Shown: positions 19,789-29,699 of the stretch, piece by piece | Layout: each line of letters starts with the position of its first letter | How positions within the stretch are numbered: the first letter of the stretch is position 1 | Source of the DNA: an uncultured Clostridia bacterium | GTDB lineage: Bacteria > Bacillota > Clostridia > Christensenellales > CAG-917 | NCBI GenBank assembly: GCA_944363035.1 | Contig: CALVTS010000003.1 | Span: forward strand, 62,001-126,000 | Length of the DNA: 64,000 nucleotides | Direction of reading: 5' to 3' | Program-made: the position numbers and the translations under genes | Notes under the pieces: model-generated | Told to the model about the DNA's origin: nothing | Database searches by the model: none | The model's input: the letters and a program-made list of their open reading frames with translations, nothing else

Positions 19789-21273
19789 ATGGACGACATC
19801 AAGAAACGCAGAAAATTCGACACCAAAGTTCAGTACCTGCAATACAAAGCGTTGCGGGAGGTCGCGCGCGGCGCGTGGAACGGGGATCTCCTCGACAAAG
19901 TGCTGGACATCCCCAACGTCATCATCCCAGGCAACCTGCCCACCATGCGGTGCTGTGTGTATAAGGAACGCGCGATAATGGCGGAGCGCGTCAAGCTCGC
20001 CATGGGCGGGGACAGGACAAATCCCAACGTCATCGAAGTCATCGACATCGCGTGCGACGACTGCCCCACCGGCGGATACGAAGTGACCAACGCCTGCCGC
20101 GGATGCCTCGCGCACCGCTGTGAGGACGTGTGCCGCAAAAACGCCATCTCATTCGATCATCAGCAGAAAGCGCACATCGACAAGAACCTGTGCGTGGAGT
20201 GCGGACAATGCGCCAAAGTGTGCCCGTACAGCGCCATAGTCTCCCGCCGCCGTCCCTGCGAGAACTCCTGCAAGGTGAAAGCCATCTCCATGAACGAGAA
20301 CAAGGCGGCGAGCATCAACAACGACAAGTGCACCTCCTGCGGCGCGTGCGTTTATCAGTGCCCCTTCGGCGCCATAATCGACAAGTCCTTCATCCTGGAC
20401 GTCATCGACATGATCAAAAAGAGCGAGAACAACACCAAGTACAAGATGTACGCGGTGGTCGCTCCCTCCATCTCCAGCCAGTTCACCTACGCCAAACTCG
20501 GGCAGGTGGTGACAGGCATCCTGAAACTCGGCTTCTTCAACGTGGTGGAAGCCGCCCTCGGCGCGGATATGGTGGCGTATAAAGAGGCGGCGGAGCTCGC
20601 AGAAAAGGGATTTCTCACTTCTTCCTGTTGTCCCGCATTTGTCGATTACATCAGGAAGCAGTTCCCCGAGCTCGCCGAGCACATCTCCGCGAACCTCTCC
20701 CCCGCCGCGACCATCGCCAAGTATATCAAGGAGACCTCCTCCCCCTGCAAGGTGGTGTTCATAGGTCCCTGTACGGCGAAGAAGATGGAGTTCCAAAAAC
20801 CCGAGGTGCGTCCCTACATCGACTCCGTCATCACCTTCGAGGAATTGCAGGCGCTTTACGATTCCCGCGACATCGACATCGAGACCTTGGAGGAGAGCGC
20901 ACTCGACAACGCCTCCTACTTCGGCAGGATATTCGCAAGGAGCGGCGGCATCACGGACGCGGTGAGACAAGCTCTCAAAGAGCAGAACATCACGAACTTT
21001 GACTACAAACCCGTCACCTGCGACGGCATAGAGGCGTGCCGCACCGCACTCCTCAAAAAGTCCAAGGGAGTGCTGGACGCCAACTTCATCGAGGGCATGG
21101 CGTGCGTGGACGGGTGCATAGGCGGCGCGGGCTGTCTCACCCACGGCGAAAAGAACAAGCGCGAGGTGGACGCCTACGGCAGGCTCGCGATGGAAAAGAG
21201 CATTTCGGACGCCATAGGCATATACAACCTCGCCCGCGCCGAAGTCCCTGCCGCGAATGAGGAAGAAGACTGA
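19789..21273 (+). CDS. hydA: catalytic [FeFe]-hydrogenase, monomeric group-B-like
   Basis: This 494-residue enzyme has an N-terminal helical part, several [4Fe-4S] cysteine clusters (about C89-C161, then C181, C184, C187, C191) and the H-cluster domain. The loops read TSSCCPAF (C280, C281), IGPCTAKKMEF (C328) and GMACVDGCIGG (C439, C443). The proton-transfer cysteine C280 is present, unlike in the HydS protein upstream, so this one should be active in H2 evolution, probably from ferredoxin. The ribosome site is poor (no clear GGAGG). Maturation genes hydE, hydF and hydG are not in the window. Confidence 0.92.
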   Translation: MDDIKKRRKFDTKVQYLQYKALREVARGAWNGDLLDKVLDIPNVIIPGNLPTMRCCVYKERAIMAERVKLAMGGDRTNPNVIEVIDIACDDCPTGGYEVTNACRGCLAHRCEDVCRKNAISFDHQQKAHIDKNLCVECGQCAKVCPYSAIVSRRRPCENSCKVKAISMNENKAASINNDKCTSCGACVYQCPFGAIIDKSFILDVIDMIKKSENNTKYKMYAVVAPSISSQFTYAKLGQVVTGILKLGFFNVVEAALGADMVAYKEAAELAEKGFLTSSCCPAFVDYIRKQFPELAEHISANLSPAATIAKYIKETSSPCKVVFIGPCTAKKMEFQKPEVRPYIDSVITFEELQALYDSRDIDIETLEESALDNASYFGRIFARSGGITDAVRQALKEQNITNFDYKPVTCDGIEACRTALLKKSKGVLDANFIEGMACVDGCIGGAGCLTHGEKNKREVDAYGRLAMEKSISDAIGIYNLARAEVPAANEEED

Positions 21274-21293: not shown

Positions 21294-21322
21294 TTGACAA
21301 GGACAAAAATGAGTTTTATAGT
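21294..21322 (+). promoter_or_regulatory. promoter of the aromatic amino acid operon
   Basis: TTGACA (21294-21299), 17 bases, TATAGT (21317-21322). Transcription should begin near 21329, just before the leader peptide. Confidence 0.85.
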
Positions 21323-21336
21323 ATCGGTGAAGAACT

Positions 21337-21423
21337 ATGAAAAACATCCGCATCAACAGCTTCGCATACTTCTACTTTAAGGGCTTTTATTTCAAGAGCC
21401 CCGTTTTCGGTATGCGCGGATAA
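21337..21423 (+). CDS. Phe/Tyr-rich leader peptide of the aromatic operon
   Basis: A 28-codon ORF starts at ATG 21337 behind GGTGAAG and ends TAA 21421-21423. Six of its codons are Phe and three are Tyr, clustered as FAYFYFKGFYFK. This is the hallmark of a ribosome-mediated attenuation leader such as pheL. A strong terminator follows 22 bases after the stop, before the DAHP synthase gene. The family of short leaders is not conserved in sequence, so the call rests on composition and layout. Confidence 0.88.
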   Translation: MKNIRINSFAYFYFKGFYFKSPVFGMRG

Positions 21424-21475
21424 GGTTTTTCGGACTACGACAAGCAAGACCGCCATACCGGCGGTCTTTTTGTTT
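21408..21475 (+). promoter_or_regulatory. attenuator: antiterminator and terminator stems
   Basis: The terminator stem is AAGACCGCC (21446-21454) with GGCGGTCTT (21460-21468), then a T-tract. CGGTATGCGCGG (21408-21419, the end of the leader ORF) can instead pair with CCGCCATACCG (21450-21460) apart from one bulge, which would break the terminator. A ribosome that completes the leader covers the first arm and favours termination; one stalled on the upstream Phe/Tyr codons leaves it free. Confidence 0.8.
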
Positions 21476-21517
21476 GACCCGACCTCGGATGCGGATATGC
21501 CCGACAAGGAGTGACAC

Positions 21518-22534
21518 ATGATCATCGTCATCAAAAAAGATCCCGACAAAAAACAGATGGACAACCTCGTCAAGTGGATAAAAGGACTGGGGCTGGACAT
21601 CCACATGAGCAAGGGGGACAACACCACCGTCATGGGGCTCATCGGCGACACCTCCGTCGTGGACGAGGACCTCATCAGATCGCTGGACATTGTGGAGAGC
21701 GTGAAGCGCATCCAGGAGCCCTTCAAAAACGCCAACCGCAAGTTCCACCCCGAGGACACCGTTGTGGACGTGGGAGGGCATCTCTTCGGCGGAGGGCATT
21801 TCCAGCTCATCGCGGGGCCCTGCTCCGTCGAGAGCGAGGCGCAGATAGTCGCCGTCGCCAAAGCGGTGAAAGCGGCGGGAGCCACCGTGCTCCGCGGCGG
21901 CGCTTTCAAGCCGCGCACCTCCCCTTACGCATTCCAGGGTCTGCGCGCCGAGGGCATGAGACTGCTCTCCCTCGCCAAAAAGGAGACGGGGATGCCCGTC
22001 TGCACCGAGATACTTGACATCCGCCACCTCCCCCTCTTCGAGGACGTGGACCTCATCCAGGTCGGCGCGCGGAATATGCAGAATTTCGAGCTGCTGAAAG
22101 AGTTGGGCAAGACGAACAAGCCCATCCTCCTGAAACGCGGCATGGCGGCGACCATAGAGGAATGGCTGATGAGCGCGGAGTACATCATGTCCGAGGGCAA
22201 CATGAACATCATCCTCTGCGAACGAGGCATCCGCACCTTCGAGCCCTACACCCGCAACACCCTCGACCTCTCCGCCATCCCCGTCCTCCGCGAGCTCACC
22301 CACCTTCCCATCCTGGTGGATCCCAGCCACGCCTCGGGACGCGCCAAGCTGGTGCTCCCCCTCTCCCTCGCCTCAGTCGGCGCGGGCGCGGACGGATTGG
22401 AGATCGAGGTGCACAACGACCCCGTACACGCCCTCTCGGACGGCGCGCAATCCCTGCGTCCCGAGCAGTTCGACGACCTCGTGAAGCGCATCGACGTGCT
22501 TCTCACCGTGTGCGGCAAGGAGCGTGACAAATGA
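21518..22534 (+). CDS. aroF: 3-deoxy-7-phosphoheptulonate (DAHP) synthase
   Basis: The 338-residue enzyme joins phosphoenolpyruvate and erythrose 4-phosphate, the first step of the shikimate pathway. Residues 1-70 form a ferredoxin-like regulatory domain typical of the I-beta class; the barrel follows, with IAGPCSVES, RGGAFKPRTSPYAF and VDPSHASGR. The N-terminal domain suggests feedback control by an aromatic product, but the effector cannot be read from sequence. AAGGAG stands before the ATG. It is the first structural gene after the attenuator. Confidence 0.95.
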   Translation: MIIVIKKDPDKKQMDNLVKWIKGLGLDIHMSKGDNTTVMGLIGDTSVVDEDLIRSLDIVESVKRIQEPFKNANRKFHPEDTVVDVGGHLFGGGHFQLIAGPCSVESEAQIVAVAKAVKAAGATVLRGGAFKPRTSPYAFQGLRAEGMRLLSLAKKETGMPVCTEILDIRHLPLFEDVDLIQVGARNMQNFELLKELGKTNKPILLKRGMAATIEEWLMSAEYIMSEGNMNIILCERGIRTFEPYTRNTLDLSAIPVLRELTHLPILVDPSHASGRAKLVLPLSLASVGAGADGLEIEVHNDPVHALSDGAQSLRPEQFDDLVKRIDVLLTVCGKERDK

Positions 22535-23403
22535 AGATAGGCATTGTAGGTCTCGGGCTCATGGGCGGTTCTCTCGGGCGTGCGCTGGTCGCAAGGACCA
22601 CTCACACCGTCTACGCCTGCGACCGCGACCCCGAAGCCATGTTGAAGGGCGGGATGCTGAACGCCTACCACGAGGAGCTCACCCGCGAGAACGCGGGGGA
22701 ATTGGACATCTTCCTGATGGCGGTGGTGCCGTCCGCGATGCCCGACATCCTCAAAGAATATCTTCCCCTGCTGAAAAGCGGCGGGATAGTCAGCGACCTC
22801 GCGGGCGTGAAAAGACCCGTCGTCGCCATGATGAAAGAGAGCGCGGACCTGCGCCCCGACCTGGGATTCGTCGGCGGACACCCCATGGCGGGAAGGGAAT
22901 TCAGCGGCGTGGCGCACTCCACGGCGGGGCTGTACGACGGCGCGTCCGTCCTGCTCGTGCCCGTCTCCGCCTCCCTCGAAGCTCTCGCCGCCCTCAAACA
23001 GATGTACGTCTCCGTGGGCGCCGAAGGCGTGCTCATCACGGACGCGGACACCCACGACGAGATGATAGCCTACACCTCCCAGCTCGCGCACGTCATCTCC
23101 TCTGCTTATGTCAGGACTCCCTCTGCGGACAAGCACTACGGCTATTCGGCGGGTAGCTTCCGCGACATGACCAGAGTGGCGCGCATGAACGCCGCCATGT
23201 GGACGGAACTCATGACCGAGAACGCGGACGATCTCTCCCGCGAGATAAGGGGGATGACCGCGCGCATGAACGAATATGCCGACGCCATGGAAAGGGGGGA
23301 CAAAGCCGCTCTCTTCGAGTTGCTGGACGCGGGCAACCGCGCAAAACTTTCCGTGGAAAAGGACAGGAACAAAAAACTGCGTTCCGCGCTGGAAGGCGAT
23401 TGA
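22531..23403 (+). CDS. tyrA: prephenate dehydrogenase
   Basis: This 290-residue enzyme oxidatively decarboxylates prephenate to 4-hydroxyphenylpyruvate, the tyrosine branch. It begins with the NAD(P) site GIVGLGLMGGSLGRAL, then has SDLAGVK and FVGGHPMAGREFSG, characteristic of TyrA. No ACT domain and no chorismate mutase domain are fused. It overlaps aroF by four bases (ATGA), which points to coupled translation. Confidence 0.93.
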   Translation: MKIGIVGLGLMGGSLGRALVARTTHTVYACDRDPEAMLKGGMLNAYHEELTRENAGELDIFLMAVVPSAMPDILKEYLPLLKSGGIVSDLAGVKRPVVAMMKESADLRPDLGFVGGHPMAGREFSGVAHSTAGLYDGASVLLVPVSASLEALAALKQMYVSVGAEGVLITDADTHDEMIAYTSQLAHVISSAYVRTPSADKHYGYSAGSFRDMTRVARMNAAMWTELMTENADDLSREIRGMTARMNEYADAMERGDKAALFELLDAGNRAKLSVEKDRNKKLRSALEGD

Positions 23404-23461: not shown

Positions 23462-24493
23462 ATGAAGACCGTCATACGTACCTCCTCGGGAGAATACCCC
23501 GTCCTCACGGGACACGGCGTTTCCTGCCGCGTCTTAGAGCTTTCCGGCATCCTCCCGAACGTCACGAAAGCCGCCGTGGTCACGGATGACAACGTGGCTC
23601 CCCTGCACCTGCAAAAACTGCTTGACGTACTGCCAGAGGGCACTTTGAGATATGTCGTACCTCACGGCGAACAGAGCAAGAACTGGAAACTTTTGGGGGA
23701 GCTTCTGGAAGGCTTCGCGGCGGACGGACTGCGCCGCGACGACGTGTTGATCGCTCTCGGCGGCGGGGTCGTCGGAGACCTCGCGGGCTTTGCGGCGAGC
23801 GTATATATGCGGGGGATACCCTATGTCCAGGTGCCCACCACTCTGCTTGCCGCCATAGATTCCTCCGTGGGCGGCAAGACCGCCGTGGACCTCAAAGCCG
23901 GGAAAAACCTGGCGGGCAGGATATATCCTCCCCGCGCGGTGGTGTGCGACATCGACTTTCTTTCCACCCTCCCCAAGGCGGAATGGAAATGCGGTCTGGG
24001 CGAAGCCGTCAAATATGCCGTGCTCGCGGGCGGAGAGATGTTCGAACTCATGAAAAAGGGCTTGGACGAAAATTCCCTCGAACATTTCATCGACCTTGCG
24101 GTGGACTACAAGAGGCAAGTGGTGGAGGCGGACGAAAACGAGAGCGGCACCCGCCGCCTACTCAACCTCGGGCACACCGTGGGACACGCCGTGGAGACGG
24201 AGAGCGCGCTGGGATTCCCTCACGGGGTCTGCGTCGCTATGGGGATAAAGGCAGTCGCGCGCGCCTCTCTCAGCGCGGGGCTCCTCCCCAAAGAGGACTA
24301 TCTCGCCATCTCATCTCTCATTCAAAAGTACTCTTTCCCGGAGTGCCCCTATCCCATGCGTTCCGTCCTCGGACACGTCGCGCACGACAAAAAGATATCG
24401 GGAGGCAAACTCAACGTGGTCGTGATACGCGGCATAGGCAGATGCGAGATCCTCCCCATGACCCTGAAAGAATTTGAGGAGTTCGTGTCATGA
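23462..24493 (+). CDS. aroB: 3-dehydroquinate synthase
   Basis: The 343-residue enzyme makes 3-dehydroquinate from DAHP, second step of the pathway, using NAD and a divalent metal. Diagnostic stretches are HGEQSKNW, LIALGGGVVGDLAGF, the PTTLLAAIDSSVGGKT block and the metal ligands in NLGHTVGHAVE. The ATG at 23462 follows AAAGGAGAAGAG; the frame opens further upstream inside tyrA but without a ribosome site. The gap to tyrA is 58 bases with no visible terminator. Confidence 0.95.
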   Translation: MKTVIRTSSGEYPVLTGHGVSCRVLELSGILPNVTKAAVVTDDNVAPLHLQKLLDVLPEGTLRYVVPHGEQSKNWKLLGELLEGFAADGLRRDDVLIALGGGVVGDLAGFAASVYMRGIPYVQVPTTLLAAIDSSVGGKTAVDLKAGKNLAGRIYPPRAVVCDIDFLSTLPKAEWKCGLGEAVKYAVLAGGEMFELMKKGLDENSLEHFIDLAVDYKRQVVEADENESGTRRLLNLGHTVGHAVETESALGFPHGVCVAMGIKAVARASLSAGLLPKEDYLAISSLIQKYSFPECPYPMRSVLGHVAHDKKISGGKLNVVVIRGIGRCEILPMTLKEFEEFVS

Positions 24494-25737
24494 AAGCCGA
24501 GATAAGACCCTCATTCGTGCACGGTACGGTGGAAGCCGTGCCCTCCAAATCCCACGCGCACCGTCTGCTTATCGCGGCGGCACTCGCGGACGCTCCGTGC
24601 AAGGTGATATGCCCCGCCGTCTCGCGGGATATCGAAGCCACGGCGCAATGCCTTTCCGCGCTGGGAGCGGATGTGACGCGCACGGAATACGGCTTTGCGG
24701 TCTCCCCCGTGACGAATGCCGAAAGACACGCGGTGTTGGACTGCGGCGAAAGCGGTTCCACCCTCCGTTTCCTTCTGCCCGTGGCGTGCGCGCTGGGAGT
24801 CAACGCCACTTTCACGGGAAGAGGACGTCTGCCCTACCGCCCCGTCTCCGCGCTTGCGGACTGTCTGCGCAGAGGAGGCGCGGAGGTGGGCTCGGATTCC
24901 CTCCCCCTGCTCACGGGAGGGAGGCTCTCCGCCCGTGAATACACCGTTGACGCTACTGTGAGCTCGCAATACGTCAGCGGTATGCTCTTCGCGCTCGCCT
25001 CGACGGGAGAGGAAAAGATCCTACGCACCACGGGGACTCCCGTCTCGACGGGATACACGGACATGACCCTTGCCGTCCTCGCCCTCTTCGGCAAAAATGT
25101 GGAGCACGAAAACGGCGTGTACACCATCCCCGCAGGCAGACTGCGCTCCCCCGGGAGCGTGCGCGCCGAGGGAGACTGGTCCTCGGCGGCGTTCCTGCTC
25201 GCGGCGGGAGCCCTGAAAGGCGACGTGACCGTGACGGGACTGGACCCCGAGAGCGCGCAGGCGGACAAGCGTATGGCGGACATCCTCGCCGACATGGGTG
25301 CGCGTATAGAACTGACTCCCGTATCCTGCCGCGCGATACAGGGGGAACTCCATGGCATAGAATGGGATGTGGAGGACACCCCCGATCTTGCTCCCGTGCT
25401 CTCGGTGCTCATGGCGCAAGCCTCGGGCAAAAGCGTGATGACGGGAGTTTCCAGACTCAAAGACAAAGAGAGCGACCGCCTCGCGGCGATCGTAGATAAC
25501 CTCGCCGCCATGGGAGTGCGCACGCAAACGGACGGCAGCGTCCTCACCATATACGGCGGGGGGATAAAGACTTTCGGAGCGCACGGGTTCGGCGACCACC
25601 GCATGGTCATGTCCGCCGCCGTCGCGGGGCTTGTCTCGGGCGGAGAGGTGGACGACGCGGAAGCCGTGTCCAAATCCTATCCCGCATTCTTTGCGGATCT
25701 GAGATCGCTGGGAGGAAACTGCGATGAGACCCTTTGA
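24490..25737 (+). CDS. aroA: 5-enolpyruvylshikimate-3-phosphate synthase
   Basis: The 415-residue enzyme condenses shikimate 3-phosphate with phosphoenolpyruvate. It shows AVPSKSHAHRLLIAAAL at the N-terminus, DCGESGSTLRFLLPV in place of the classic GNAGTAMRPL, and SRLKDKESDRLAAI and GDHRMVMSAA near the end. The GESGSTLR form is the divergent clostridial-type active site rather than the E. coli type. It overlaps aroB by four bases. Confidence 0.94.
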   Translation: MKAEIRPSFVHGTVEAVPSKSHAHRLLIAAALADAPCKVICPAVSRDIEATAQCLSALGADVTRTEYGFAVSPVTNAERHAVLDCGESGSTLRFLLPVACALGVNATFTGRGRLPYRPVSALADCLRRGGAEVGSDSLPLLTGGRLSAREYTVDATVSSQYVSGMLFALASTGEEKILRTTGTPVSTGYTDMTLAVLALFGKNVEHENGVYTIPAGRLRSPGSVRAEGDWSSAAFLLAAGALKGDVTVTGLDPESAQADKRMADILADMGARIELTPVSCRAIQGELHGIEWDVEDTPDLAPVLSVLMAQASGKSVMTGVSRLKDKESDRLAAIVDNLAAMGVRTQTDGSVLTIYGGGIKTFGAHGFGDHRMVMSAAVAGLVSGGEVDDAEAVSKSYPAFFADLRSLGGNCDETL

Positions 25738-26818
25738 CGTCCTCGAACTCGAAATATTCGGTGAGTCCCACTCCCCCGAGATAGGAGCCCGACTCGCGGG
25801 ACTGCCCGCGGGTGAGAGCTTCGATCCCGAGGAGGTCGCGCGCTTTGCCGCGCGCAGGAAGAGCGGGAAGTATCTCTTCTCCACCCCGAGAAGGGAGGAG
25901 GACGAATGCGTGTTCGGAGGCTGTGCCGAAAATGCGGACGGCACCCTCTCGACGACGGACGCCCCCATCACCGCGCGCATACTCAACACCAACATCCGTC
26001 CCGCCGACTACGGCTATCTGCGCACCCCCCGTCCCTCTCACGCGGACTACTGCTCCTACGTCAAAGACGGCGAAAGAGCGGCGCGCTCGGGCGGCGGACG
26101 CTTTTCGGGCAGGATGACCGCGCCCCTCGTCGCGATGGGCGGAGTGGCGAAACAGTTGCTCGAAAAACGAGGGATACGCGTCGCGGCGTACATCGCCGAG
26201 CTCGCGGGCGTGAAAGGCAGGAGCTATCGCGATAAAGAGGTCTCCTTCGAGGAGGCGCAGGGATGTCTCTCCCTCTCCCTGCCCATGCTCTCGCGGTGGG
26301 AGGAAGCCGCTGAAAAGGCAAGGCTCGCCGCCGAAAAGGGAGACAGCGTGGGCGGCGTGACGGAATGTATAGCGTACGGACTTCCCGCAGGACTCGGCGA
26401 CGCCCTCTTCGGCGGGCTGGAAAGCAAACTTTCGGCGGTGATATACGCCATACCCGCCGTAAAGGGAGTGGAATTCGGCGCGGGATTCGCCATCGCCGCG
26501 ATGAGAGGGAGCGAAGCCAACGACCCATTCATCATCAGAGAGGGGAAGGTGCTCACCGCAAAGAACGACTCCGGCGGACTCAACGGGGGCATCACCAACG
26601 GGATGCCCGTCACCATGAGGGTCGCATTCCGTCCCACCCCGTCGATATCCCTCCCCCAGCGCACGGTGGACCTCGCCTTCATGACGGAGACGGAGATCGT
26701 CGTCAAGGGAAGACATGACGCGACCGTCGTCCCCCGCGCGGTCGCGGCTGTGGAAGCCGCAGTCGCCATCGCCCTCCTGGACGCGGTGCTTTACAGCGAA
26801 AGAGAACAAAGATCCTGA
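25724..26818 (+). CDS. aroC: chorismate synthase
   Basis: The 364-residue flavin-dependent enzyme produces chorismate. It has GESHSPEIGARLAGLPAG at the start, SGGGRFSGRMTAPLVAMG in the middle and NDSGGLNGGITNG late, all family signatures. It lacks some of the length of larger homologues but is complete. It overlaps aroA by 14 bases. Confidence 0.95.
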   Translation: MRPFDVLELEIFGESHSPEIGARLAGLPAGESFDPEEVARFAARRKSGKYLFSTPRREEDECVFGGCAENADGTLSTTDAPITARILNTNIRPADYGYLRTPRPSHADYCSYVKDGERAARSGGGRFSGRMTAPLVAMGGVAKQLLEKRGIRVAAYIAELAGVKGRSYRDKEVSFEEAQGCLSLSLPMLSRWEEAAEKARLAAEKGDSVGGVTECIAYGLPAGLGDALFGGLESKLSAVIYAIPAVKGVEFGAGFAIAAMRGSEANDPFIIREGKVLTAKNDSGGLNGGITNGMPVTMRVAFRPTPSISLPQRTVDLAFMTETEIVVKGRHDATVVPRAVAAVEAAVAIALLDAVLYSEREQRS

Positions 26819-26882: not shown

Positions 26883-28028
26883 ATGTTAGAAGAACTTCGC
26901 AAAAAGATAGACGACATCGACGACAAGATCGCGGCGCTCTATCTCGAAAGGCAGAACACGGTGCGTGAGATAGGCGAGGAAAAAGCGCGCACTCACACCG
27001 CCGTAGCCGACCCCGCGCGGGAAAAGAAGATCATCGCAAGAGTGACCAAAAACGCGGATGACGAGCAAAAAATATACCTTAAACGCGTGTTTGAGACAAT
27101 GATCGAGACTTCGCGCGCTTATCAGAGACGGCTGGTCGCGCCCGTCACTCCCCTTTCGGACGAGCTGAGACGGGTGCTGATGGAGGGCAAGAAATACTTC
27201 CCCGTGTCCAGCACCGTGGCGTGCCAGGGCGTGGAGGGGAGCTATTCCTCCATCGCCGCGGACAAGCTCTTCGAGATCGCCGACATCACCTTCTTCAAAA
27301 ACTTCGAGGGGGTGTTCCAGGCGGTGGAGAAGGGGCTGTGCGACTACGGCGTCCTGCCCATCGAAAACAGCGCGGTGGGGAGCGTCAACGCGGTGTACGA
27401 CCTGATGAAGAAGCACCGCTTCTACATCGTGAGGAGCATAAAGCTCAAAGTCAGTCATCACCTGCTCGCGAAAAAGGGAGTGGCGCTCTCGGAGATAAAG
27501 GAGATATTCTCCCACGAACAGGCGATAGGTCAATGCGCGGCTTATCTGCAAAAGCTCTCCCCCTCGGTCAAGGTGACGGCGTGCCCCAATACGGCGGTCG
27601 CCGCAGAGAGGGTGGCTTCCTCGGAGCGCAGGGATGTCGCGTGCATCTCCTCCCGCAACTGCGCGGAGCTTTACGACCTGGGCATACTGGATTCCAACAT
27701 CCAGGACAACGACTCCAACTACACCCGCTTCATCTGCATAAGCAAGACGCTGGAAGTGTTCGCGCCCGCAAACCGCATCAGCATCATGATGACCCTGCCT
27801 CATGAGGCGGGCTCCCTCAACAGGGTGCTCAACAAATTCTCCACCCTCGGGCTCAACCTCACCAAGCTGGAATCCCGTCCCCTGCACGGCACGGATTTCG
27901 AATTCATGTTCTATTTCGACTTCGAGGGACAGATCGAAAACTCCGACACCCTCTCCCTCATCGCCGAGCTGGATCAGGGCACGGAACAGTTCGTATTCCT
28001 CGGGAGCTATTACGAGGTCTCGCAATGA
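26883..28028 (+). CDS. pheA: bifunctional chorismate mutase/prephenate dehydratase with ACT domain
   Basis: The 381-residue P-protein has an AroQ-class chorismate mutase (about 1-85, LRKKIDDIDDKIAALYLERQ), a prephenate dehydratase domain (about 105-285, with GVEGSYSS and LPIENSAVGSV) and an ACT domain (about 298-375, containing the ESRP-type stretch LESRPLHG). It makes phenylpyruvate for phenylalanine and the ACT domain normally gives Phe feedback inhibition. The start at 26883 follows GAGAGGTG; a longer frame runs back into aroC. The 64-base gap to aroC holds no terminator. Confidence 0.95.
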   Translation: MLEELRKKIDDIDDKIAALYLERQNTVREIGEEKARTHTAVADPAREKKIIARVTKNADDEQKIYLKRVFETMIETSRAYQRRLVAPVTPLSDELRRVLMEGKKYFPVSSTVACQGVEGSYSSIAADKLFEIADITFFKNFEGVFQAVEKGLCDYGVLPIENSAVGSVNAVYDLMKKHRFYIVRSIKLKVSHHLLAKKGVALSEIKEIFSHEQAIGQCAAYLQKLSPSVKVTACPNTAVAAERVASSERRDVACISSRNCAELYDLGILDSNIQDNDSNYTRFICISKTLEVFAPANRISIMMTLPHEAGSLNRVLNKFSTLGLNLTKLESRPLHGTDFEFMFYFDFEGQIENSDTLSLIAELDQGTEQFVFLGSYYEVSQ

Positions 28029-29293
28029 GATACGGGCTTTTGGGGAACCCACTCGGGCACAGCTTCTCCCCCCGTCTGCACGCCGACTACGGCACGGAGG
28101 GATATGAGCTCTGCGTCCTCCCGCCCGACCGCCTCGCCGAGTTCTTCGAGAGGAGGGAGTTCGCGGGAGTGAACGTCACCATCCCCTACAAACGCGATGT
28201 GATGGCGCTGGTGGACGAACTCCATCCCTCTGCGACGGAATGCGGCGCGGTGAATACCGTCGTCAACAGAGGAGGCAGACTGCTGGGCTACAACACGGAC
28301 GCGTACGGTATGCGCTTCGCGCTGGAACACGCGGACATATCCCTCTGCGGCAAACACGTCCTCGTGCTCGGGAGCGGCGGCACTTCGCACACCGCCTGCG
28401 CCCTGGGAAAGAGGGAAAACGCCGCTTCCGTCACCGTGGTCTCCCGCTCGGGAGAGGTGGACTATTCCTCCGTGCTATCACGAAAGGAGGCGCAGATCGT
28501 CATCAACGCCACCCCCGTGGGGATGTACCCGAACGCGGAGGCTTCCCCCTTGGATCTTTCGGCGTTCCCCGCCCTCGAAGGAGTGTTCGACGCCGTCTAC
28601 AACCCCCTCCGCACCCGCTTGATATTGCAGGCGCGCGCGCTCGGGCTCAGGGTCGCGGACGGACTTCTCATGCTGGCGGCGCAGGCAAAGGCGTCCTCCC
28701 TCCTCTTTCACGGCGGAGAGTACTCCGAACCCCTGCCTTCCGAGGAGGCGGGCAGAGAGATATTGCGCGCCCGACTCGCGCTCGCGCGCGACCTCACGAA
28801 TATCGTGCTCGTAGGGATGCCCTCTGCGGGAAAGAGTTCCCTCGGCAGAAAACTTGCCGAAAAACTCGGGCGTCCCTTCCTGGACACCGACGACCTCGTC
28901 TCGGAACGCGCCGGAAAAAGCATCCCGTCCATATTCGCCTCCGAGGGCGAAGGAGGCTTCCGCGCCCGCGAGGCGGAAGTCGTCGCAGAATGCGCCGCGC
29001 GCTCCGGCGTCGTGATAGCGACGGGAGGGGGCGCTCCCCTTTCGGAGCGCAACAGCCTTAACCTCGCCTCCAACGGGTTCACGGTGCTGGTGCGCAGACC
29101 CCTGAAACTCTTGGAGACTGTGGGCAGACCCCTTTCCAAAGACCTCGCGACCCTTGCCGAGATGGAAAAGGCGCGGATGCCCGTATACACCGCGTTCTGC
29201 GACGCGGAAGTCCTCAACGACGGCGACCTCGACGAGTGCGCCCTGAACATAACGGAGAAGTTTTATGAAAATTTCTGTGATCAACGGTCCTAA
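28025..29293 (+). CDS. shikimate dehydrogenase-shikimate kinase fusion (AroE-AroK)
   Basis: This 422-residue protein joins two enzymes. Residues 1 to about 245 are shikimate dehydrogenase (NPLGHSFSPRLH, GVNVTIPYKRDVM, LVLGSGGTSHTA, INATPVGMYPN). From about residue 258 a shikimate kinase follows, with the P-loop GMPSAGKSSLG, LDTDDLV and a GGGAP loop. The two steps are not consecutive to a dehydratase but are consecutive to each other in the pathway, so fusion may pass shikimate directly. It overlaps pheA by four bases. Confidence 0.93.
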   Translation: MRYGLLGNPLGHSFSPRLHADYGTEGYELCVLPPDRLAEFFERREFAGVNVTIPYKRDVMALVDELHPSATECGAVNTVVNRGGRLLGYNTDAYGMRFALEHADISLCGKHVLVLGSGGTSHTACALGKRENAASVTVVSRSGEVDYSSVLSRKEAQIVINATPVGMYPNAEASPLDLSAFPALEGVFDAVYNPLRTRLILQARALGLRVADGLLMLAAQAKASSLLFHGGEYSEPLPSEEAGREILRARLALARDLTNIVLVGMPSAGKSSLGRKLAEKLGRPFLDTDDLVSERAGKSIPSIFASEGEGGFRAREAEVVAECAARSGVVIATGGGAPLSERNSLNLASNGFTVLVRRPLKLLETVGRPLSKDLATLAEMEKARMPVYTAFCDAEVLNDGDLDECALNITEKFYENFCDQRS

Positions 29294-29699
29294 CATAAAT
29301 ATGCTCGGGATACGCGAGCCCGACATCTACGGCAAGCGCGACTACGCCGCCCTCGTGGGCTACATCGAAAGAGCCGCCTCAGATCTCGGCGCGGAGGTGA
29401 CCTTCTTCCAGTCCAACAGCGAGGGGGACATCGTGACGGAGATACAGCGCGCCTACGGCAACTATGACGGCATCGTCATCAACGCCGCCGCCTACACCCA
29501 CACCTCCGTCGCCATCCTCGACGCGCTGAAAGCGGTGGGGCTCCCGACCGTGGAGGTGCACCTTTCGGACATAAACACCCGCGAGGATTTCCGCAAGATT
29601 AGCTATGTCTCTTTGTATGCCGAAAAAATGATATGCGGCAAAGGATTCGAGGGGTATGCCGAAGCCCTCGCCTATCTCGCCCGAAAATACGGCAAATGA
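29265..29699 (+). CDS. aroQ: type II 3-dehydroquinate dehydratase
   Basis: This 144-residue enzyme dehydrates 3-dehydroquinate to 3-dehydroshikimate. It has GPNINMLGIREPDIYG, FFQSNSEGDIV, INAAAYTHTSVAI and VEVHLSDINTRE, covering the catalytic Tyr, Asn, His and Glu positions of the family. It overlaps the AroE-AroK gene by 29 bases. With it, all seven shikimate steps are encoded in one operon. Confidence 0.95.
   Translation: MKISVINGPNINMLGIREPDIYGKRDYAALVGYIERAASDLGAEVTFFQSNSEGDIVTEIQRAYGNYDGIVINAAAYTHTSVAILDALKAVGLPTVEVHLSDINTREDFRKISYVSLYAEKMICGKGFEGYAEALAYLARKYGK

Follow-up and report, generated by a model that had tools for sequence, protein, structure and literature searches.

A Phe- and Tyr-codon leader peptide as the probable attenuator of an eight-gene shikimate-to-Phe/Tyr operon in Clostridia

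Among described systems, the leader studied here is most like E. coli pheL-pheA and the trp/his-type attenuators of Proteobacteria, in which likewise a short ORF with end-product codons, a 1:2/2:3/3:4 pairing layout and a terminator stand before the first gene. The pheL peptide is Phe-only and serves pheA, before which its ORF is seen to stand, whereas the present leader carries Phe and Tyr codons before an eight-gene clostridial pathway operon; no sequence relation between the two was found (no Rfam match). In Bacillota, leader-peptide attenuation was formerly thought absent (PMC2965389), and the published leader peptides of the phylum are for His (PMC2965389, PMC9413887) and, in S. aureus, Leu (PMC5794164); these are also amino-acid leader-peptide attenuators, but for different amino acids and genes. 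Naville and Gautheret have described switches between T-boxes and leader peptides at other genes (PMC2965389). The element uORFC-13-1 (PMC8632094) is similar in that a Phe-codon uORF stands directly before a terminator and aroF and was proposed as an attenuator; it is given for Acholeplasma and unassigned environmental sequences only (24 representatives, at least one Phe codon), and this description sets it apart from the present leader, with its F plus Y codons and clostridial relatives. Two uORF motif drawings from a five-genome survey (PMC6429828, Fig. 6b) also show F and Y near shikimate metabolism genes, for which the main text gives no organism, spread or mechanism. The first-pass annotation had regarded T-box or TRAP control as more usual for amino-acid operons of Bacillota; leader-peptide attenuation is indeed rarer than T-boxes in the literature, but the last two sources are precedents for it. 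The spread reported below was found in no paper (open-licence papers only, hence weak evidence of absence). The kind of system is known, and what is new is its wide and apparently undescribed range in Clostridia: the mechanism appears to be a classic one, found widely in a setting that had not been charted, and not a new kind of switch.

The window, a stretch of 64,000 nucleotides from an uncultured Clostridia bacterium (Christensenellales; contig CALVTS010000003.1 of GCA_944363035.1), carries the leader region on its + strand before aroF. A sigma-A-type promoter (21294-21322; TTGACA, 17 nt, TATAGT) has 11 of 12 consensus matches, with 0.3 sites of this grade expected by chance in the scanned region, and the 14-nt gap from the end of the -10 box to the leader ATG leaves a short 5' end for the ribosome. 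The leader ORF (21337-21423; MKNIRINSFAYFYFKGFYFKSPVFGMRG followed by the stop codon) comprises 28 codons by ORF translation, six of them for Phe and three for Tyr. It is followed by an intrinsic terminator with U tract (21446-21475; a 9-bp stem at 21446-21468, then TTTTTGTTT) and by the aroF Shine-Dalgarno sequence AAGGAG (21506-21511), so that promoter, ORF and strong terminator all stand as the first-pass annotation had placed them.

Folding of 21329-21480 gave -50.6 kcal/mol (z = -5.2; 0 of 200 shuffles equally stable). In the minimum free energy (MFE) structure of the full leader, the early ORF is paired with the ORF end (1:2) and the terminator (3:4) is standing. Region 1 (CGCAUAC, 21363-21369, within F/Y codons) pairs with GUAUGCG (21410-21416), and the pairing is extended by AUCCGC (21346-21351) with GCGGAU (21416-21421); this "protector" pairing of 21346-21351 and 21363-21369 with 21410-21421 thus lies partly inside F/Y codons. 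When the 5' part was made unavailable, the MFE structure became the alternative pairing that had been claimed from the sequence, between region 2 (CGGUAUGCGCGG, 21408-21419, the 5' strand of the antiterminator, overlapping the last leader codons) and region 3 (CCGCCAUACCG, 21450-21460, the 3' strand, overlapping the 5' arm of the terminator), and the terminator was lost. With the added 1:2 pairing, the classical 1:2/2:3/3:4 layout is complete. The region therefore has a short ORF, predicted to be translated, that is rich in codons for the end products of the operon, an intrinsic terminator between this ORF and the first gene, and an antiterminator and terminator that are mutually exclusive and, by computation, controlled by ribosome position.

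From these features and the comparisons below, ribosome-mediated transcription attenuation by the F/Y leader is very probably the control of the operon. RNA polymerase would start just after 21322 and transcribe the leader of 28 codons. When Phe-tRNA and Tyr-tRNA are plentiful, the ribosome would reach the stop codon and cover region 2, the 3:4 terminator would form and the operon would be off. With either charged tRNA scarce, the ribosome would stall in the FAYFYFKGFYF stretch, so that region 2 could pair with region 3 while the 3' arm of the terminator is still to be made, giving readthrough into aroF; since the F codons alternate with Y codons, running short of either amino acid should suffice. 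A leader without translation would take up the 1:2 fold and terminate. The pairings and their mutual exclusion are features of the RNA as folded here; leader translation, ribosome stalling, coupling and the starvation response we infer from them.

To assess the switch, we modelled a ribosome whose footprint extends 13 nt downstream from the start of the A-site codon. The window's terminator formed with a probability of 0.97 when no ribosome was present or when one stood at the stop codon, of 0.01-0.16 with the A-site in codons 5-19 (Met = 0), and of 0.97 again from codon 20; all but one of the nine F/Y codons fall in codons 5-19. Over the set of 131 loci, the MFE of the antiterminator before synthesis of the 3' arm was -21.2 kcal/mol, as against -16.4 kcal/mol with shuffled spacers (mean z -1.58, s.e. 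0.10; no locus exceeded +2). Within the genus the stems hardly vary, which made pair covariation uninformative, and a comparison of own with other partners was used instead of a family alignment, in which gaps were misplaced in the short helices. Each locus's own region 2 paired with its own terminator arm at -14.8 kcal/mol, compared with -10.3 kcal/mol for region 2 of other loci (mean z -1.55; 10 of 131 loci in the opposite direction), an advantage of the kind that compensatory change predicts. At full equilibrium the switch was clear in 34 of 131 loci; the median terminator probability at the best stall was 0.91, and the terminator beats the antiterminator in many relatives, where the switch would therefore have to be kinetic. 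Kinetic working is usual for attenuators.

The genes downstream, all on the + strand, begin with aroF (DAHP synthase; 21518-22534; NF006421 and TIGR01361 above cut-off), the first gene controlled. They continue with tyrA (prephenate dehydrogenase; 22531-23403; below curated cut-offs, with all top families in agreement), aroB (3-dehydroquinate synthase; 23462-24493; TIGR01357 above cut-off, start picked inside a longer ORF), aroA (EPSP synthase; 24490-25737; TIGR01356 above cut-off) and aroC (chorismate synthase; 25724-26818; TIGR00033 above cut-off). A fused chorismate mutase-prephenate dehydratase, pheA, follows at 26883-28028 (NF008865 at 218.5 of 219 bits, NF007910 full-length; start picked inside a longer ORF), then an aroE-aroK fusion of shikimate dehydrogenase and shikimate kinase (28025-29293; residues 3-235 AroE, 251-399 AroK) and aroQ (type II 3-dehydroquinase; 29265-29699; TIGR01088 above cut-off). 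The estimate of at least eight genes made at first reading is borne out by this list, which takes in the DAHP synthase step, the remaining shikimate steps and the first reactions of the branches to Phe and Tyr. Immediately before the leader lies a gene for a monomeric [FeFe] hydrogenase (group B; 19789-21273 of the window), which in the gene-order comparison of relatives stood before aroF in 10 loci only.

Promoter, leader and stems are kept at the equivalent place in 10 of 10 genomes of the genus. For a wider set, we collected 173 aroF upstream regions from order-level genomes and named GTDB representatives, and scored as an F/Y leader any short ORF that begins with ATG and has five or more F/Y within 8 codons. 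Such an ORF was present before aroF in 130 of 173 regions, whereas dinucleotide-shuffled sequence gave 2.0 and the reverse strand 2, and no ORF passed the threshold in the other 43 loci. F/Y ranked first of 190 amino-acid pairs (130 regions; next AY, 60). The first-pass annotation had staked its reading on relatives that keep aroF also keeping the F/Y ORF and stems, and this expectation survived the comparison. Mean leader content was 4.4 F and 4.0 Y, with at least two of each in 127 of 133 leaders and W making up 0.2% of residues; the leaders were picked by F/Y richness, so these composition figures are conditioned on it, and the unbiased tests are the shuffle, reverse-strand and 190-pair comparisons. 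A terminator stood before aroF in 132 of 133 leaders, a median of 34 nt after the leader stop, and a sigma-A-like promoter (a loose match, counted without shuffle control) at most 50 nt before the leader in 116 of 133. The leader-terminator arrangement is far beyond chance. In most leader-bearing loci the order aroF-tyrA-aroB-aroA follows downstream. Most relatives thus retain an F/Y ORF, nearly always accompanied by a terminator and an antiterminator partner, a pattern that favours the attenuation reading.

The same data bear on whether the ORF instead encodes a functional small hydrophobic peptide followed by an ordinary terminator, leaving aroF unregulated. The peptide is aromatic and hydrophobic, as that reading has it; we consider it very unlikely, since the ORF is placed before aroF in three-quarters of the loci and is rich in the very products of the pathway, its non-F/Y sequence is unconserved beyond the genus, and the retained antiterminator complementarity is unexpected for an unrelated small protein. 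Somewhat less improbable, though still unlikely, is a nascent arrest peptide that senses free Phe/Tyr or another ligand, not tRNA charging, with the same terminator/antiterminator output: a stalled ribosome with alternative stems would give similar anatomy. Arrest peptides require specific residues at fixed places, whereas between genera these leaders have only F/Y richness in common and its order and spacing vary freely. The leader C-terminus GMRG is conserved in the genus, but it is encoded by pairing region 2, which argues against reading it as an arrest motif.

Leaders were also carried by the named species Oscillibacter valericigenes (L050) and Angelakisella massiliensis (L062). Among more distant aroF genes of the phylum, 12 of 40 sampled passed a looser threshold, mostly those with closer AroF sequences, so the trait is limited in range. 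On an AroF tree, leader presence was weakly clustered (15 changes, compared with 18.7 in shuffles). Three loci with an F/Y leader and terminator before aroF (L071, L090, L094) come from bins labelled Lentisphaerae and Thermoguttaceae, which may reflect horizontal transfer or misbinning; many of the relatives are metagenome bins, and misbinning may account for the odd taxon labels in general (Treponema, Lentisphaerae, Thermoguttaceae). A scan of putative viral contigs found six IMG/VR contigs (L228-L233) that encode AroF-like DAHP synthases, all distant homologues.

Since T-boxes are common for amino-acid genes of Bacillota, the leader region might instead be a T-box or another ligand-binding riboswitch with an incidental ORF, a reading for which one could cite three more distant relatives whose aroF is preceded by a T-box with a Tyr (UAC) or Phe (UUC) specifier. 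Against it, neither the window nor eight leader-bearing loci gave a match at the gathering score of any Rfam family, and the one T-box candidate in the genome is at another locus, where it carries a Trp specifier and precedes a trpB-like gene. The leaders also stay rich in F/Y codons although their RNA sequence differs. We therefore regard this reading as extremely improbable, and leader-peptide attenuation is retained. Among specific candidates, the T-box model (RF00230) gave no match in the window, and none of the leader families of Rfam 15, proteobacterial amino-acid leaders included, scored above its gathering threshold. TRAP-type control, which needs about 11 (G/U)AG repeats, was rejected because 21329-21445 contains just one GAG and lacks UAG.

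An Rfam scan of the leader-less loci found T-boxes in 3 of 60, each directly upstream of aroF in a more distant genome; the specifiers were read as UAC (Tyr) in L214 and L215 and UUC (Phe) in L216. Control of aroF thus lies with a Tyr/Phe T-box in some Clostridia and with a Phe/Tyr leader in others. The two serve the same gene, respond to the same signals (charging of tRNA-Tyr or tRNA-Phe) and both use antitermination; they differ in that the T-box RNA binds tRNA directly, with no ribosome stalling. One gene would then be under two unrelated charging sensors in different lineages. The broader proposition is that F/Y leader attenuation is the main, long-standing control of aroF-tyrA-aroB-aroA across a large part of Clostridia (meaning the window's order together with relatives of the Oscillibacter/Angelakisella type), replacing the Tyr/Phe T-boxes of other Clostridia; the evidence leaves this evenly poised between true and false. 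For gut Clostridia, which are abundant and mostly uncultured, the analysis gives a probable mechanism by which aromatic amino-acid synthesis is controlled.

A 2026 study (PMC13323073) classed Bacillota as a whole as having runaway transcription, and uncoupling of transcription and translation of the B. subtilis type would weaken the attenuation mechanism. The attenuator needs a ribosome near the polymerase, so retention of the leader would mean either that these Clostridia are coupled or that pausing gives local coupling; for B. subtilis, pausing that depends on NusG, together with ribosome stalling, has been reported (PMC6851288). An 8-bp hairpin within the leader ORF (21381-21401; + strand), in which 100% of cells pair in the 10 genus sequences, is a candidate pause signal for RNA polymerase; in the other genera inspected by eye it was not seen as such. 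Were the leader the main control of aroF, transcription and translation would be effectively coupled at this locus in a "runaway" phylum (PMC13323073). Conservation of the leader in Bacillota therefore offers a natural test for the generality of runaway transcription, or for the way in which pausing brings back local coupling.

Elsewhere in the genome, the single T-box candidate (L031:1501-1742; G000:C10:44810-45051) scored 72 bits, below the curated 93. Read by eye, it has a UGG (Trp) specifier and precedes a TrpB-like gene from L031:2055 onwards, and the locus has the look of indole salvage controlled by a Trp T-box. In this genome (95% complete) the anthranilate synthase N-terminal family (trpE) had no match, compared with matches in 14 of 14 control genomes; Trp is therefore probably imported or derived from salvaged indole. 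Phe and Tyr would then be the amino-acid products of the pathway, which a leader of F and Y codons without W fits. At pheS (L186), no other leader peptide was convincing. In the his operon (L187, minus strand), the first ORF resembles by eye a TrpR/YerC-like (TrpR/HisR-type) gene; a HisR repressor has been described (PMC9413887), the start of the operon in this genome is alike, and the gene would add a third kind of amino-acid control to this genome.
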